From positions 1-30,089 of IMG/VR virus record IMGVR_UViG_3300025652_000343: 30,089 nucleotides of DNA. One strand, written 5' to 3'. The stretch comes from a virus. The notes below the pieces were generated by a model. The model made no database searches, had not been told where the DNA came from, and saw only the letters and a list, made by a program, of their open reading frames with translations. This document shows positions 9,650-28,630 of this stretch, one piece after another (positions within the stretch are counted from its first letter, which is position 1; every line of letters starts with the position of its first letter). The translations under genes and the position numbers were made by a program.

Positions 9650-11527
9650 CTAAGGATTACTTTTAAACACGTCTGAATCAACAGTAAAAAGCTCAACAGA
9701 CTCTGTATTGTTATTCGTTAGTTTGAATTGTAAAAAGTAACCTAATGTACCATAAGACTCTGCGACACTATTTTTTACATATAAAATATAACTTGAAGGC
9801 ACAGCCGTTAAAATTAATGGATTAGCTATTGTTATATTTGTTCTATCCGAACTTACTTCTGTTATTGTACCTATTTCCTCTATAACCCCTGCATTATTAT
9901 AATATGCAACGTCTCCAATACTTAATATTGAGTCTATAGAAAAACTAAAAGTTAAAGTAATAGGGTTGGGGCCAACACCTGTGGTTGAAGAAAAAGTACC
10001 TATTCCTTGCGCTGATCTAAGCTCTAAATTGTCAGAGCCTTCTATTCTTCTTATATACGCAAAATAAGCTCCCTCTTTTAATACAAAATAAGAGGCAGGC
10101 ATAAAACCAGTCCCTAAATCTGAAAGAACATCACAATCCCAAGAATCATCGCTTTCAAGTTCGATAGTTTTAAATACTTTAGTGGTTGTTGGCTCTTGAT
10201 TAAACACGCCTGTTATTGTTGAAGGATAATCTAATCCATAGTAATTATTTCTTCTTTCATTAGTATTGTGTCTAAATAAATTTCCGTTTTTAAAAGTATA
10301 AAGATATTGATTCATTCCTAATATAAAATCAGGCTCATAACTGTAAAAAGAAGGCCATCCATTTACTGATTCACTAAAAGTTAAGGTATAAGATTGCAAA
10401 TTAGAGCCTTCTCTTTCATCAAATATTGGCTGAAAGCACCCATCAATAGGTGCGTATATTTTTGTTCCAACAATTAATGGCTGATAATAATCATACGGAT
10501 CAATGCTTTCAGGTTCTTCGAAAGCATAAAAGACAGAACCATCTAAGTTTAAAACAATATTTTGATAAGAATCTATTCCGTTGTAAGAGGTAAAATCTCC
10601 CTGTATGTATATCTTATTTTCCCATATTATAGTAGATAAATAAGTAGCATCATTAAATCCTAATCCAAAATTAGCAGAAGTATCTATAGAACCATCTTCA
10701 TTAATCTTCACAATATAACCAACAGAAACATCATTATAAATAGTAAGATGCCCTGTTACATAAAAAGAAGTTTCATCTGCGTATCTAAAAAAATAATTAG
10801 CAAAGCATGTCTGATTATTTGGAAAGCATATATATGGAAATATTCCTGTCCCTGCATCAAATGAAGGGTCTATAGAGCCTGTAGACGTAAGTTTAGTTAT
10901 TCCAGGAGAGACAGGTGTTCCATCAAATGAATTCCAAAACCCTAAACAAAACATTGAGTTATCAGGGTTTATTAAGACATCAGTACCTGTATTGCTTCCA
11001 CCAAAAAAACCTGTTCCAATTGCAAAGCTAGGGTCTATTGTTCCATCAGACAACAATCTAGCAATACGACTAGATGGTGTGCCATTAAAATTACTAAACA
11101 ATCCTGTAATAACTATTGACCCATTAGAGTCTACTTTAGACCCTTGAGTAAAATTATTAAATCCTGTTCCAATATTTTGAGAAAAAGCCAAGTCTATAGA
11201 ACCATCAGCGTTTAATCTTGTTACTTTGTTTTGAGAGACTCCATTAAATGAAATAAAATTTCCTGTGCATATTATTTTACCATCATCTTGTATCGTAATG
11301 CTTTCTCCTGAGTACAATATTTGATTAAACCCAGTTCCAATATCAAAAGCAGTATCAACGCTTAAATCTTCATTTAATTTTATTAATCCAGAATATGGAT
11401 AATCAGTTTCTCCATTTGTGAACGTATTAAAGCTACCATAATAATATGTAGTATTGTTTTTAAAAATAATATCCACCATGTAGAAATCTACTGGTAACCA
11501 TCCGTAACATAAATTTTCTATTGCCAT
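9650..11527 (-). CDS. Delta-60-repeat beta-propeller tail/receptor-binding-type protein, 625 aa
   Basis: Residues about 25-300 hold several copies of the delta-60 repeat (DUF5122 type). Each copy has a strand such as DDGKIICTGNFISFNG, then RLNADGSIDLAF, then a GTGF turn, at a spacing of roughly 50-60 residues. Such repeats build beta-propellers and are common in Bacteroidota surface proteins. The C-terminal part (from about residue 455, VFKTIELESDDSWDCDV, then FVLKEGAYFAYIRR) looks like a separate beta-rich module that in related phages can follow the tail-stabilisation protein. The gene follows the Cys-module gene with a 3-nt gap. A propeller in the distal tail would suit binding of a host surface polymer or receptor. 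The repeats are visible; the receptor role is inferred. Confidence 0.7.
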   Translation of the reverse strand: MAIENLCYGWLPVDFYMVDIIFKNNTTYYYGSFNTFTNGETDYPYSGLIKLNEDLSVDTAFDIGTGFNQILYSGESITIQDDGKIICTGNFISFNGVSQNKVTRLNADGSIDLAFSQNIGTGFNNFTQGSKVDSNGSIVITGLFSNFNGTPSSRIARLLSDGTIDPSFAIGTGFFGGSNTGTDVLINPDNSMFCLGFWNSFDGTPVSPGITKLTSTGSIDPSFDAGTGIFPYICFPNNQTCFANYFFRYADETSFYVTGHLTIYNDVSVGYIVKINEDGSIDTSANFGLGFNDATYLSTIIWENKIYIQGDFTSYNGIDSYQNIVLNLDGSVFYAFEEPESIDPYDYYQPLIVGTKIYAPIDGCFQPIFDEREGSNLQSYTLTFSESVNGWPSFYSYEPDFILGMNQYLYTFKNGNLFRHNTNERRNNYYGLDYPSTITGVFNQEPTTTKVFKTIELESDDSWDCDVLSDLGTGFMPASYFVLKEGAYFAYIRRIEGSDNLELRSAQGIGTFSSTTGVGPNPITLTFSFSIDSILSIGDVAYYNNAGVIEEIGTITEVSSDRTNITIANPLILTAVPSSYILYVKNSVAESYGTLGYFLQFKLTNNNTESVELFTVDSDVFKSNP

Positions 11528-24319: not shown

Positions 24320-26566
24320 TTACCTTATGATTTGACTGTAACTTCCTTTGTTGTCGTATTTAGCAAAGTTAAGTTTTATTTTTGATTTTTTTTTAACAGG
24401 TTGATATAGGCTTTTTTGACAAGCCATTATTGCTAAACCTGAACTAATAGACGCATCAAATTTAGTTCTGTTATTTATATTAAATCTAGCCCAATCTTCC
24501 AGTGTTCTTGTAAAATACATAGATCCCATCATATCTGATTCTCTAAAGGTACTTAATAAATCTAATCCTACATATTTTTCTATATAGGACTCAATTGCAG
24601 CAGCATGAGCTTGTTTAATATCTTCTGAACTATTTGGAATTCCTCCAAGTTCTTTTTCTGTTTTAGAAAGCTTATTCCATGACCTATCAGGCCTAGTCAT
24701 TGAGTATCCCCTATAACCCCTATTTTTAAAATGATAAAGCAATCTAGGTTTGTTATTTTCTATAAGTATAGGCATTCCATAAAACACACAAGCCATAAGT
24801 ATTTCTTCAAAAAATATTTCTGCCGTTTGAGGCCTAGCAACATATTGTAAGAAAAATTCATTTACCGGGCCTTCATCCATATGGTATTTAGTTAATCCAT
24901 GACAAGCTCCATTAGATGCGCCCCCTCCAACAGTTCCAGATATATCATAACTATCACAACCAAAAGCCCCCATGTGTTCGTTCCCTGGATAAAAAACTCC
25001 GTTTTTTGTATATCTTTTGTTTTGAAGCATTTTATTTGGAGTCCAAGAAATTAAAAATCTTCCTTTATTGTTTGGGCTAAATATAACTTCAGTATCTTTT
25101 ATTCCATCTCTCCAAGAAAAAGAACCTCTAGTTAAAAACTTATCTTTTATTAAAGAATCATTATAATCAATCTGCTGATATATTTTTGTAAGATTAAAAA
25201 GAGACTGTTTACTTTCATCTCTAAAAGCATGCGACTCTGTTCTAGGAAATTGTCTGTAAAATTCATTTAAAGCATCAGGATCATTTTTTAAACTATCAAC
25301 TTCCGCTTCCCAATAATCAATAGCTCCTTGTGTTATTAATTCTTCATCAATACCTATTATTGGAGTTTCAGGAGTTCTAAAAACAGGCATACCGTATCTA
25401 TCTATAAAACCCTCCATATTAAACTCCATAGGAATAAATAAACTATATAATCCACTTTTAGTTTGACCATTTCGATTCCTATTAGCAACTTTAGAATCAA
25501 AATATAATTTCTTACCGTTATCTCCACCTTTTTCTAAAGCATTAGCTGTAGAACCCATCATGCATTTACCAATAACTTTACTACCTAAACGAAGACAAGT
25601 CTTTGTAACTCTCCAGTTGTTTAATATATTATTTGGCTTTTCCCATTTTTTTGATTCGTCATGAACTAATAATTTTAGTTTTTCTCCATCATAACTATTG
25701 TCTCCAGTATTTTTCCAGTCAATAGAAGTATCCAATCCCTGTACGATATCTTCTTCCTCTATATACATATTCTTTTTTGTAATTTTAGAAGCAGGAACTC
25801 TAAATGCTAATTCTGTTTTAGGCTTATCCATACCATCTTGAACAGGTTTAAAAAAGAAAGGATAATTATTTACAATTGGAACAACTTTATCTGTAAACAT
25901 TTTTTTAGCATCAGCACCTGTTTTTGAAAGTATGCCTAATCTAGCATCTTTACTTATGGTACCAATATTTGCGGATTCTTCACTTGCCATATAAGAAAAT
26001 CCTGAACGTCTTATTTTTAAATAATCTTGACCAAAACTTCTTTTGTCAGCCTTGCACGCTTCCCAATGAAGATAAAAAATTCTATTAGCATCTCTATAAT
26101 CGGGAAGACCTACATCTATTTTAGTCCATTGAATATACATATAATGAGAACCTGTTATATAAGTTTCTACCCCATTATTCATAAACCAAAAACCTTCATC
26201 TCTTCTATCAAACTCTTGTTCAATATAATCAACCCATTCATCTTTAAATGATGATGGAGCTGAATGCCATTGAAATATAGATTTAATTTTTTGTAGTTGT
26301 TTTGGATATTCAAAAGGAACCCAATACTGTTCGGATTTTTTTTTACTATTTGAATGTATTTTTTTAGGAGGTTTAGGCAATGCTATTTTTATTCCTTCTA
26401 TTTCAACAACATCTTGAATTTCACCAGATTTTGATATAACTATAAAGTCATATTTTTCGTTATAACCATAAGCCCAAGATTTAGATTTATTTTTATTAGT
26501 TATAACTGTTTTTGGTAAAAAATCTTTTAAATTTTTTATTAAGCTATGTTGATCTTCGTTCTGCAA
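24320..26566 (-). CDS. terL: Terminase large subunit (packaging ATPase-nuclease), 748 aa
   Basis: A 748-aa protein with ATPase then nuclease domains. The Walker A region, around residue 185, is KIRRSGFSYMASEE. It keeps the R-R-x-G-x-S frame but has F189 where the P-loop lysine is expected. Walker B is LLVHDES (299-305, D303 and E304). The coupling motif is MGSTANA (337-343). Nuclease acidic residues are likely D538 (AFGCDSYD), E603 (LIENN) and D704 (FDASISSGLA). The length matches the large terminases of crAss-like and aquatic short-tailed phages. The gene starts 23 nt inside the preceding 92-aa gene and ends against the portal gene, so it is translationally coupled to both. It pumps DNA into the procapsid and cuts the concatemer. 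Confidence 0.85.
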   Translation of the reverse strand: MQNEDQHSLIKNLKDFLPKTVITNKNKSKSWAYGYNEKYDFIVISKSGEIQDVVEIEGIKIALPKPPKKIHSNSKKKSEQYWVPFEYPKQLQKIKSIFQWHSAPSSFKDEWVDYIEQEFDRRDEGFWFMNNGVETYITGSHYMYIQWTKIDVGLPDYRDANRIFYLHWEACKADKRSFGQDYLKIRRSGFSYMASEESANIGTISKDARLGILSKTGADAKKMFTDKVVPIVNNYPFFFKPVQDGMDKPKTELAFRVPASKITKKNMYIEEEDIVQGLDTSIDWKNTGDNSYDGEKLKLLVHDESKKWEKPNNILNNWRVTKTCLRLGSKVIGKCMMGSTANALEKGGDNGKKLYFDSKVANRNRNGQTKSGLYSLFIPMEFNMEGFIDRYGMPVFRTPETPIIGIDEELITQGAIDYWEAEVDSLKNDPDALNEFYRQFPRTESHAFRDESKQSLFNLTKIYQQIDYNDSLIKDKFLTRGSFSWRDGIKDTEVIFSPNNKGRFLISWTPNKMLQNKRYTKNGVFYPGNEHMGAFGCDSYDISGTVGGGASNGACHGLTKYHMDEGPVNEFFLQYVARPQTAEIFFEEILMACVFYGMPILIENNKPRLLYHFKNRGYRGYSMTRPDRSWNKLSKTEKELGGIPNSSEDIKQAHAAAIESYIEKYVGLDLLSTFRESDMMGSMYFTRTLEDWARFNINNRTKFDASISSGLAIMACQKSLYQPVKKKSKIKLNFAKYDNKGSYSQIIR

Positions 26567-26822
26567 ATCCTGATACTGGTTGTTTTTTATTTTTTGATTC
26601 CTTTCCTTCTATTAAATTTTTTTCTGCTTCTATTCTAGTTAATATTTCAAAAGCATCAAATATGGCTAATTTTTTTGTAGCAGCAGCATTTTTTAATTTA
26701 TCTGCAGCAAGTTCATCATCTTCACCATATTTTATAATTTGTTCTTCAGCAACTTTTATTAATTGCTTAACTGCTTTTTCACCAGCCTTTATAATGTCTA
26801 ACTTTATTTTATCTACATTCAT
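26544..26822 (-). CDS. Small terminase-like or packaging accessory protein, 92 aa
   Basis: A 92-aa, strongly helical, charged protein with an AADKLKNAAATKKLAIFDAF segment followed by EILTRIEAEKN, and a basic, Gly/Pro-containing tail (KKQPVSGFAERRST). It immediately precedes terL (23-nt overlap) and overlaps the upstream co-chaperonin gene by 4 nt. This is where terS usually sits, and the AADKLKNAAATKKLAIFDA core is a conserved feature of proteins in this position in aquatic phages as I recall them. No HTH is evident, so DNA binding is unproven. Calling it TerS is an inference from context, not from a motif. Confidence 0.55.
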   Translation of the reverse strand: MNVDKIKLDIIKAGEKAVKQLIKVAEEQIIKYGEDDELAADKLKNAAATKKLAIFDAFEILTRIEAEKNLIEGKESKNKKQPVSGFAERRST

Positions 26823-27382
26823 AGTGATAAAGTTATTTGGTGATCAAACATTCTATATAGTTTTTCTCCGTCAACATTAAACTCATATTCACTATCTGGT
26901 TTAAAAGAAACTTTGTCACCTTTTTTTACTCCTTTGCTAAGTAAATATTTATTTGGATATTTAACCAACCCTATTAAAGGCTCTTCGTTTTCATGACTTT
27001 TTAAATAGCTTTCTTTTTTTTTAATTGGTTTTATCATGCAGTATTTAGAATGAGCGTTCCATACGCCATTATGATTATATAAGAAAAATTGATCATTATC
27101 TATAAAAAACAAATTATCTTTAAAAAAACTTTTTCCACTTCTTTCAACTCCTTTCATGTCATTATAATATTTAAAAACATTATGATGAACTAACAAAGTA
27201 TCTCCTATTTTTATAGGTCCAGTGTAATTTATTGGAGTTTCCACAACTATTCCATATCGATTTGAGGCCACATGGTCCTCTTTAGATGTGCTAGTAATAA
27301 AATCTATATTACCTATTTTTTTAGTGCTATTGTATCTTTTATTATTCTTCGGTTTTACAATAAAATAAAAAGGTGATTTCAT
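26819..27382 (-). CDS. Phage co-chaperonin, GroES/gp31-like, 187 aa
   Basis: A 187-aa protein with two halves that both resemble the GroES beta-barrel. Residues about 43-80 read YGIVVETPIN, then IKIGDTLLVHHNVFKYY. The C-terminal half (about residues 134-187) reads PLIGLVKYPNKYLLSKGVKK, then GDKVSFKPDSEYEFNVDGEK and LYRMFDHQITL. The G-D-x-V strand followed by a VDGEKLYRM end parallels the GroES C-terminus (VGD-x-V...GE.....E.DI). T4 gp31 and other phage co-chaperonins work with the host GroEL to fold the capsid protein. The gene is in the capsid/packaging operon, 4-nt overlaps on both sides, which suits that role. A mobile-loop sequence is not clearly identifiable. Alternative: an unrelated small barrel protein. 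Confidence 0.5.
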   Translation of the reverse strand: MKSPFYFIVKPKNNKRYNSTKKIGNIDFITSTSKEDHVASNRYGIVVETPINYTGPIKIGDTLLVHHNVFKYYNDMKGVERSGKSFFKDNLFFIDNDQFFLYNHNGVWNAHSKYCMIKPIKKKESYLKSHENEEPLIGLVKYPNKYLLSKGVKKGDKVSFKPDSEYEFNVDGEKLYRMFDHQITLSL

Positions 27383-27612
27383 TGAAAATATATATTATAC
27401 TCAATAGAAATAGGCATATTAGGATTAAATTCTTTCCACAAAAAAATCTCTCCTTTTTTATTTTCTATAAAAATACCTATCGATTGATGGTTTTTATTCA
27501 TTTTTATTAAATGAATTAAATGACTACCTCCAAGTATTTCTTGACCTACAACATAATGCATAGCTCCACCTTTGTAATCAGGACCTACTGCTATCTTACG
27601 AATATCATTCAT
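27379..27612 (-). CDS. Conserved aquatic-phage protein, 77 aa, unknown function
   Basis: A 77-aa protein (MNDIRKIAVGPDYKGGAMHY, then VVGQEILGGSHLIHLI) with an amphipathic, beta-rich look and no motif I can name. I recognise similar proteins at the head of late operons in uncultured aquatic phages. It is the first gene of the packaging-head operon, with a promoter box and leader upstream and a 4-nt overlap with the co-chaperonin downstream. The C-terminus ends in ISIEYNIYFQ. The function is not known to me. Confidence 0.7.
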   Translation of the reverse strand: MNDIRKIAVGPDYKGGAMHYVVGQEILGGSHLIHLIKMNKNHQSIGIFIENKKGEIFLWKEFNPNMPISIEYNIYFQ

Positions 27613-27633: not shown

Positions 27634-27641
27634 CAAATATA
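27634..27641 (-). promoter_or_regulatory. TATATTTG promoter -7 box candidate for the packaging-head operon
   Basis: Minus-strand TATATTTG followed by TTATAAATC, 21 nt upstream of the ATG at 27612 and just past the U-tract of the terminator at 27653-27676. No TTG at the expected -33 spacing is visible. Confidence 0.5.
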
Positions 27642-27644
27642 AGT

Positions 27645-27677
27645 AAAAAAAAATACCCCTGAATTAACAGAGGTATT
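27645..27677 (-). terminator. Intrinsic terminator ahead of the packaging-head operon
   Basis: On the minus strand, AUACCUCUG and CAGGGGUAU (27668-27676 and 27653-27661) form a 9-bp stem with one G-U pair and a 6-nt loop, followed by a run of Us (27645-27652). The plus-strand transcript would have a C-A mismatch instead, so the minus orientation is favoured. It ends the lysis and fibre unit. Confidence 0.85.
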
Positions 27678-27681
27678 CTAA

Positions 27682-27770
27682 GCGAAGAGGACTCCCTAAC
27701 TGGTGCATCCACGAAGGATACTCCCTAACTGGTGCATCCACGAAGGATGCTCACTAACTGGTGTCCTCGC
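27682..27770 (-). ncRNA. Predicted three-way-junction structured element (RNA or packaging site)
   Basis: The sense (minus) strand can fold with a closing stem GAGGAC/GUCCUC (27763-27768 and 27687-27692, extended by a GC pair after a UUC bulge). Inside are two arms, GCAUCC-UUCGU-GGAUGC (27734-27750) and GUAUCC-UUCGU-GGAUGC (27705-27721). The three stems are separated by three strands of exactly 12 nt, ACCAGUUAGGGA twice and ACCAGUUAGUGA once (27693-27704, 27722-27733, 27751-27762). The second arm keeps pairing by a U-G wobble. The element ends 5 nt before the terminator stem and starts 5 nt after the stop codon of the fibre-like gene. It could be a 3'-UTR structure, a small RNA or a pac/cos-like site. 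Confidence 0.55.
27683..27769. repeat. Three 29-bp tandem repeats between the lysis and packaging genes
   Basis: Three abutting copies, 27683-27711, 27712-27740 and 27741-27769. Each has a CGAAG start, a variable centre of about 4 bp, a CTCCCTAACTGGTG core (CTCACTAACTGGTG in copy 3) and a CATCCA end (TCCTCG in copy 3). The unit is not a multiple of three and lies outside genes, so it is not coding. Its changes in copies 1 and 3 match the closing stem of the predicted fold. Confidence 0.85.
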
Positions 27771-27775
27771 ATTTT

Positions 27776-28630
27776 TTAATTCCTTGCAACAGTAGCATTA
27801 CTTCCATGTGTAATTACCACCCTAGTAACATCAGATGTATTTGGATCTCGTTGATATACAATATTTATAGCATTTGATAAGTTACCCATAATATAAGGCA
27901 GCTCATGATTTGAATTTGTCCACGCAGGGTTTGGTATACCTATTGCAAATTTTAATATTAATTTATTATAAAGATTACTATCCCAAGGAGTTCTAGTATC
28001 ATACCTTCTGTCACCTCTTATTGCACAAAAAGTTCCTGCTCCCGTAGCAGGCAAAGAGGTGTATGGTAAATCAGTGTCGGCTTCATTATAAAGAAATTGT
28101 AATTTACTAAAAGGAATTTCAATATAAGTAGCAGGTCTTAGTGAAGCAAAATCCGTTATAATAGTACCTGTTTTTGCAATTTGTAATTCTGTATTAATAT
28201 CCCATTCTGTATCGATTGGAGGTAATAAGTCAGAATTTAAAGTATAAAGAGTTGAAGTTCCCCAATTACTTCCAGGGAAGTTTTGTCTTGTAAATAGACC
28301 GTTTTGATGAGATGGATGAATAAATCCTTTCTTTTTTAAGCCAGTTTTTGCTTTCTTGTATCTAAACATAAAAAGCCTAGGATTTTTATTTAACCAATCT
28401 GTTTCAATAGGTTTTTGAATACAAACCTTATATCTACTTATTAATGGTTCTGTAAGAAGTTTAAGAACATAAATATTTGGTGTTGGTGTAGGTTCAGTAT
28501 TAATATATTCCTTTAATCCATCTACGGTAATATTTTTAGTTACGTCTGTAGGCGTTCCATTTTCTTGACTAATAATAATCTTATCAGTTCCTTGTGGAGT
28601 TACGGTATTGTATGTGCTAATCTTTGGCAT
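27776..28630 (-). CDS. Fibre-like / minor structural protein, 284 aa
   Basis: A 284-aa protein. Its first 45 residues (MPKISTYNTVTPQGTDKIII, then SQENGTPTDVTKNITVDGLK, EYI) are the virion-anchor type domain of many phage fibres and head fibres (K-I-S-x(5-8)-G-T-D-x-x-x-x-x-Q-x-x-x-T-x-x-x-T). A Pro/Thr linker TEPTPTP follows, then a beta-rich C-terminal domain with no recognised enzyme motif. It is the last gene of the lysis unit, and a TATATTTG box lies 19 nt upstream. A fibre gene beside the lysis genes fits a variable host-interaction module. It could equally be a minor decoration protein. Confidence 0.6.
   Translation of the reverse strand: MPKISTYNTVTPQGTDKIIISQENGTPTDVTKNITVDGLKEYINTEPTPTPNIYVLKLLTEPLISRYKVCIQKPIETDWLNKNPRLFMFRYKKAKTGLKKKGFIHPSHQNGLFTRQNFPGSNWGTSTLYTLNSDLLPPIDTEWDINTELQIAKTGTIITDFASLRPATYIEIPFSKLQFLYNEADTDLPYTSLPATGAGTFCAIRGDRRYDTRTPWDSNLYNKLILKFAIGIPNPAWTNSNHELPYIMGNLSNAINIVYQRDPNTSDVTRVVITHGSNATVARN

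Follow-up and report, generated by a model that had tools for sequence, protein, structure and literature searches.

The window analysed here is the whole of a 30,089-base stretch of viral DNA (IMG/VR record IMGVR_UViG_3300025652_000343, positions 1-30,089). The portal protein shares 44-68% identity with those of MW202828, Maribacter phage Panino and Flavobacterium elemoviruses. A minus-strand protein encoded at 9650-11527 combines DUF5122 beta-propeller repeats with a crAss-type muzzle C-terminal domain (PF25729, E 2e-15), suggesting that the phage is a distant relative of the crAss-like phages. Inside a minus-strand 2016-aa ORF, on the same strand but in another frame, lies a 68-aa ORF (MPFKSQAQRSKCYQMMQEAKK..., 1899-2105) that looks like a small phage gene and has no Pfam match.

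The RNA element studied here lies on the minus strand between two genes, p284 and p77, the latter without a family match above the cut-off. After p77 come a GroES-like gene, a 92-aa gene, the terminase and the portal, and the element is 1.1 kb upstream of the terminase gene. The GroES-like co-chaperonin gene sits within the packaging operon and is kept in relatives. As a first-pass annotation of the window had proposed, the element occupies a 3'-UTR position, between a stop codon and a terminator and upstream of the packaging operon. Across loci its distance to the p284 stop codon varies from 3 to about 20 nt, and the distance from its P1 helix to the terminator is nearly fixed among relatives. 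The box TATATTTG behind the terminator, which we take to resemble the -7 box (TAnnTTTG) of Bacteroidota promoters, follows the element at a near-fixed spacing of 33-38 nt in all 30 element loci. Table 1 lists the features and their coordinates.

Table 1. Features of the element and its surroundings in the window, with the genes that replace p284 in relatives.
Feature	Position	Strand	Remarks
p284, probable virion appendage/fibre gene	27776-28630	-	element in its 3' UTR
p284 stop codon	27776-27778	-	
Entire element, class 1 three-way-junction RNA	27677-27772	-	models R1/R2, 82.8-83.6 bits
P1 5' strand (GCGAGGACACC)	27760-27770	-	from alignment of relatives
Junction strand J1, AGUUA	27755-27759	-	A[AG]UUA here in relatives
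Arm P2	27731-27754	-	outer 3-bp stem, bulge/internal loop, inner stem GCAUCC/GGAUGC
P2 loop UUCGU	27740-27744	-	
Junction strand J2, AGUUA	27726-27730	-	
Arm P3	27702-27725	-	inner stem GUAUCC/GGAUGC
P3 loop UUCGU	27711-27715	-	
Junction strand J3, AGUUA	27697-27701	-	
P1 3' strand	27682-27696	-	end is UUCGC (27682-27686)
Intrinsic terminator (AAUACCUCUG..CAGGGGUAUU + U9)	about 27645-27678	-	kept also in some element-less relatives
Promoter-like box TATATTTG	27634-27641	-	directly behind terminator; in 30/30 element loci
p77, small conserved gene	27379-27612	-	first in downstream operon
p187, GroES-like co-chaperonin	26819-27382	-	phrog_13932, E 4e-23
Terminase large subunit	24320-26566	-	phrog_6681, E 1e-170
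Swapped-in genes at p284 place	L014:4746-6872, L050:5991-6839, L026:1533-2015, L029:1319-1801		

The element is built from three 29-nt units (27683-27769) with 100, 90 and 66% identity to the first copy. On the minus strand these supply the stems GAGGAC/GUCCUC, GCAUCC/GGAUGC and GUAUCC/GGAUGC (the last with one U-G pair), two UUCGU loops and three 12-nt linkers of the form ACCAGUUAG[UGG]GA, which together fill 27687-27768 exactly as first described. The three separating strands are therefore present, but alignment of relatives shows that they are not single-stranded there: each resolves into a 3-nt outer stem, a 5-nt junction strand A[AG][UC]UA and the 3-nt next outer stem, the remainder being a portion of an asymmetric internal loop or bulge. 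The window's own outer stems are weak, with 3 of 6 pairs formed in the two hairpins. All three junction strands read AGUUA in the window and its nearest relatives, and AAUUA in most others. The loops of P2 and P3 fit the motif YUNGN (UUCGU, CUUGA, ...), which is repeated by UUCGC at the open end of P1. Judged from the aligned sequences, the RNA is thus made of three near-equivalent arms, P1, P2 and P3, each carrying a YUNGN-type tip motif. Arms within one element are more alike than arms between elements, the P1 outer stem included (0/2000), a likeness that may reflect either selected symmetry or repeat homogenisation.

Relatives were gathered from viral contigs by terminase-based, pattern-based and p284-based scans. 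A first covariation set comprised 18 sequences; the full set comprises 25 distinct sequences of the element in 94 almost gap-free alignment columns with a fixed 29-nt period. The phages that carry it are an uncultured marine group. Across these 25 sequences the three-way junction is paired in 96.7% of 671 base-pair cells. Two-sided compensatory changes occur in 20 of 27 pairs (130 such cells), none of 500 shuffles attains any of five covariation measures, and sliding one side by 1-3 columns lowers pairing to 34-50%. P1, which joins the two ends of the array, is paired in 97.3% of cells and has 5 pairs with two-sided changes. In L006, L128 and L140, for example, three different self-complementary outer stems occur within a single element (UAC/GUA, CUC/GAG and CUU/AAG in L006), whereas in L143 all three outer stems are identical. 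The check set beforehand, a search for covarying pairs in related aquatic phages, was thus strongly positive. A class 1 covariance model with all three helices, built from sequences that include the window itself, matches the window once, at 83.6 bits (E about 1e-17). Moreover, the relatives hold 37 G-U pairs against 2 A-C mismatches on the sense strand, indicating that this is the strand that folds, as had been suggested from the window; such a bias would not be expected of a DNA cruciform or an antisense RNA. On this covariation we conclude that the three-way junction is a genuine RNA whose shape is under selection while its letters drift.

Folding energy alone gives another picture. The region is more stably folded than 200 dinucleotide shuffles (z = -3.8), yet the window's minimum-energy fold is a rod (-35.1 kcal/mol) and not the junction (-32.6 kcal/mol), the rod being formed by pairing between hairpin 1 (its 5' side) and hairpin 2 (its 3' side). 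Repetition among the arms makes this possible, P2 offering its 5' side and P3 its 3' side, and the rod is the energy minimum in 17 of the 25 members. It is nonetheless poorer on covariation, with 89.4% of cells paired compared to 96.0% for the junction, and we rejected it as the selected fold. Among members with P2 and P3 of different sequence, 11 pair better as the junction, 6 equally well as either fold and none better as the rod, suggesting that the junction is what selection has acted on; the rod could be a second state of the RNA or simply follow from the repeats. The near-threefold junction put forward by the first-pass annotation is accordingly borne out by covariation in relatives and not by energy. 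Local mini-hairpins inside the linkers (NNC-AAUUA-GNN) were also rejected, since they pair in 74.7% of cells and the junction outer stems in 93.2%. So were a short ORF from the AUG of AUGCGA and stop-codon read-through, the place of the stop and the frame varying among relatives when inspected by eye.

Six sequences (L021, L025, L029, L034, L082 and L162) carry a second class of the RNA at the same place, before the same terminator. Class 2 has the architecture of class 1 in other letters: UGGUU[UC]G-like junction strands, [AC]UAGU loops and a 28-nt period, with 97% of cells paired and two-sided changes in 6 pairs. The class 1 sequences L247-L249 (loops UUAGC or UUAGU) are intermediate between the classes in loop sequence, and the two are likely to be of common origin.

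Of 126 related regions upstream of the packaging operon, 27 contain the element. It is present in all 25 distinct upstream regions with p284 and in 2 of the 101 without it. Whole-record searches gave at most one strong copy per genome, with a single one in every genome that matched fully, a 60.9-kb contig among them; in 22 whole records no further copies were detected except for a weak 16-bit match in an elemovirus; L259, L264 and L275 gave weak 14-bit matches only, which look like coding-region repeats. Scanning the viral collection with a pattern independent of the flanks returned 27 matches, 24 at this locus and 3 in unrelated tandem repeats. No Rfam 15 family scored above its gathering score for this type of RNA (the best chance matches lay far below the cut-off), no match was found in cultured phages, and we found no description of such an element in the open-access literature.

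The first-pass annotation had counted retention of the genes without the repeat as evidence against a functional structure. Most relatives do keep the downstream genes without the element, but these also lack p284, which suggests that the element belongs to the upstream gene rather than to packaging. Where a gene of 708, 282 or 160 aa takes the p284 place in relatives, the terminator is kept and the element absent. The exception is L029, L030 and L034, where a class 2 element stands behind an unrelated 160-aa gene, so that p284 is not strictly needed. The same 160-aa gene occurs without the element in L026; the sequences diverge at its stop codon, a sign of recombination at that point. A tree of p187 gives 5 changes for p284 and 4 for the element. 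Of 4 independent contrasts, too few for significance, 3-4 show the element moving with p284 and none shows the opposite. Being 3 to about 20 nt apart, the two could move together from physical linkage alone.

For p284 itself we obtained no Pfam or PHROG family match, no relatives in cultured phages or in GTDB genomes, and no relative by sequence in the PDB (best E 0.27). Structure predictions reached a mean pLDDT of 53 with 6 sequences and 56 with 23, and a Foldseek search with the predicted structure gave nothing below E 0.001. Genes at this spot that are otherwise unrelated share the first ~50 residues of p284, and two of the genes replacing it weakly match tail or baseplate families. Modules are thus swapped at this place, between the lysis genes and the terminator, among genes that share a type of N-terminal segment. 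Swappable fibres usually show this arrangement, a shared N-terminal segment on otherwise different genes at one spot. From gene order, the shared segment and module swapping, we infer that p284 is probably a fibre.

We propose that the element is a structured, cis-acting 3'-UTR RNA of the p284 message that presents three equal protein sites, a reading to which we give about an even chance of being right. Comparison shows the sense-strand transcript to fold directly after the p284 stop codon into the three-arm junction, which would act in cis on that message. A conserved sense-strand structure was found between stop codon and terminator, as in 3'-UTR cis-regulators, and the location shortly after the stop and before the terminator, with no conserved promoter box of its own, argues for a 3'-UTR element. 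The threefold junction with tip motifs at fixed spacing would offer three equal binding sites, and this repetition suggests a partner that is a protein in three copies or a trimer. Because the element follows p284 and phage fibres are usually trimers, the leading candidate is the p284 product, which might feed back on fibre synthesis or couple it to assembly; a second candidate would be a protein involved in protecting or processing the message's 3' end. A more specific version, with the pseudo-threefold symmetry of the RNA matched to a trimeric virion fibre, is distinctly improbable on present evidence; in it, three fibre chains, nascent or finished, would be bound by the 3' UTR, which would set the timing of their trimerisation or serve as its template, or else stop synthesis when trimers accumulate. 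If the partner is the fibre, the symmetry of an RNA would be linked to the assembly of a trimeric protein. To our knowledge, no natural single-chain RNA is described in which covariation preserves three near-identical arms with a fixed spacing. The 25 natural variants, the second class and the gene swaps with and without the RNA provide a ready mutant series.

Other roles would fit parts of these data. By analogy with HK022 put, the nascent junction might contact RNA polymerase and alter read-through of the terminator, setting late transcription into the packaging operon. The nearly fixed spacing between P1 and the terminator is consistent with this, and a switchable terminator would be sensible ahead of an operon with its own promoter-like box; put RNA, moreover, acts alone on the elongation complex, although it works in early-gene transcription (PMC9378689) and the neighbours of the element are late genes. 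The same terminator, however, exists without the element in 7 distinct loci with other fibre genes, suggesting that it does not need the element, and the element tracks p284 rather than the terminator. We consider such transcription control unlikely. Simple stabilisation of the message, where a 3' structure shields the p284/lysis transcript from 3' exonucleases and the threefold look is a by-product of tandem duplication, is rather unlikely. The element does adjoin the terminator and repeat homogenisation is visible, but the terminator hairpin should already protect the message and stands alone in relatives, and for stabilisation alone there would be no need of threefold junction strands and loop motifs with a fixed spacing.

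A small RNA had been among the first suggestions, and a separate one is still compatible with the locus. It would be cut from, or end at, the p284 3' UTR and act in trans, for example on a host protein or an immune sensor that it would decoy or trigger. The compact stable fold closed by the terminator would suit such an RNA, as would its gain and loss between close relatives and a sequence that drifts fast while the shape stays fixed. We nevertheless regard it as improbable: the end of p284 contains no conserved promoter box (scattered matches in 14 of 30 loci), the conserved one lying after the terminator, and near-complete linkage to one upstream gene is unexpected for a trans-acting RNA. 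For RNase III, moreover, such arms are short. In favour of this reading, phage late-gene RNAs can be immune ligands, as described for cabRNA (PMC10686824). A pRNA-like packaging RNA, also suggested at the outset, or a terminase DNA site is very improbable indeed. Its location ahead of the terminase gene in one copy per genome would be in keeping with either, but the element is missing from 99 of the 126 regions upstream of the same operon; strand-specific pairing speaks against a DNA site, and the loops are alike rather than complementary, unlike those of phi29 pRNA, which interlock.

Several known RNAs resemble the element in part. The phi29 pRNA is likewise a phage RNA with a three-way junction, but its loops are complementary and ring-forming whereas those of P2 and P3 share one motif; since neither such loops nor conservation with the packaging machinery was found, we disfavour a phi29-type pRNA. 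Type III antitoxins (ToxI, CptI) also consist of tandem RNA repeats followed by a terminator. Their units, however, fold singly, as a pseudoknot, whereas here P1 joins the distal ends of the array, and the gene that follows them is a toxin gene, in contrast to p77 and the GroES-like gene, both of which are also present without the element; this identity was rejected on both counts. Their known complexes are cyclic assemblies of single repeats with toxin (PMC8860590). The STAXI motif usually has three repeats and frequent UUCG loops, yet these are repeated pseudoknots near DNA-handling genes rather than one three-way junction behind a fibre-like gene (PMC2864571). GOLLD and ROOL are structured phage-encoded RNAs in which symmetry matters, but they span several hundred nucleotides and become symmetric through homo-oligomerisation (PMC12286853), compared to about 95 nt and pseudo-threefold symmetry within one chain here. 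HK022 put is a short phage-encoded RNA and, as could be the case here, acts in cis on transcription near a terminator; it belongs to the early transcripts of a lambdoid phage (PMC9378689), whereas the element is one three-way junction at a late-gene end. Among structured 3'-UTR regulators, the L17 downstream element is a conserved RNA structure right after a stop codon that is thought to act on the upstream gene, a form of regulation its authors call highly unusual in bacteria (PMC2864571). Both the L17 element and a second such regulator differ from the present RNA, which has three near-equivalent arms with repeated junction strands and no Rfam match. That second regulator is the lambda int-sib retroregulator, similar in kind to the element. 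Nearest in kind, then, are 3'-UTR regulators such as the L17 element and cis-acting phage RNAs such as put.
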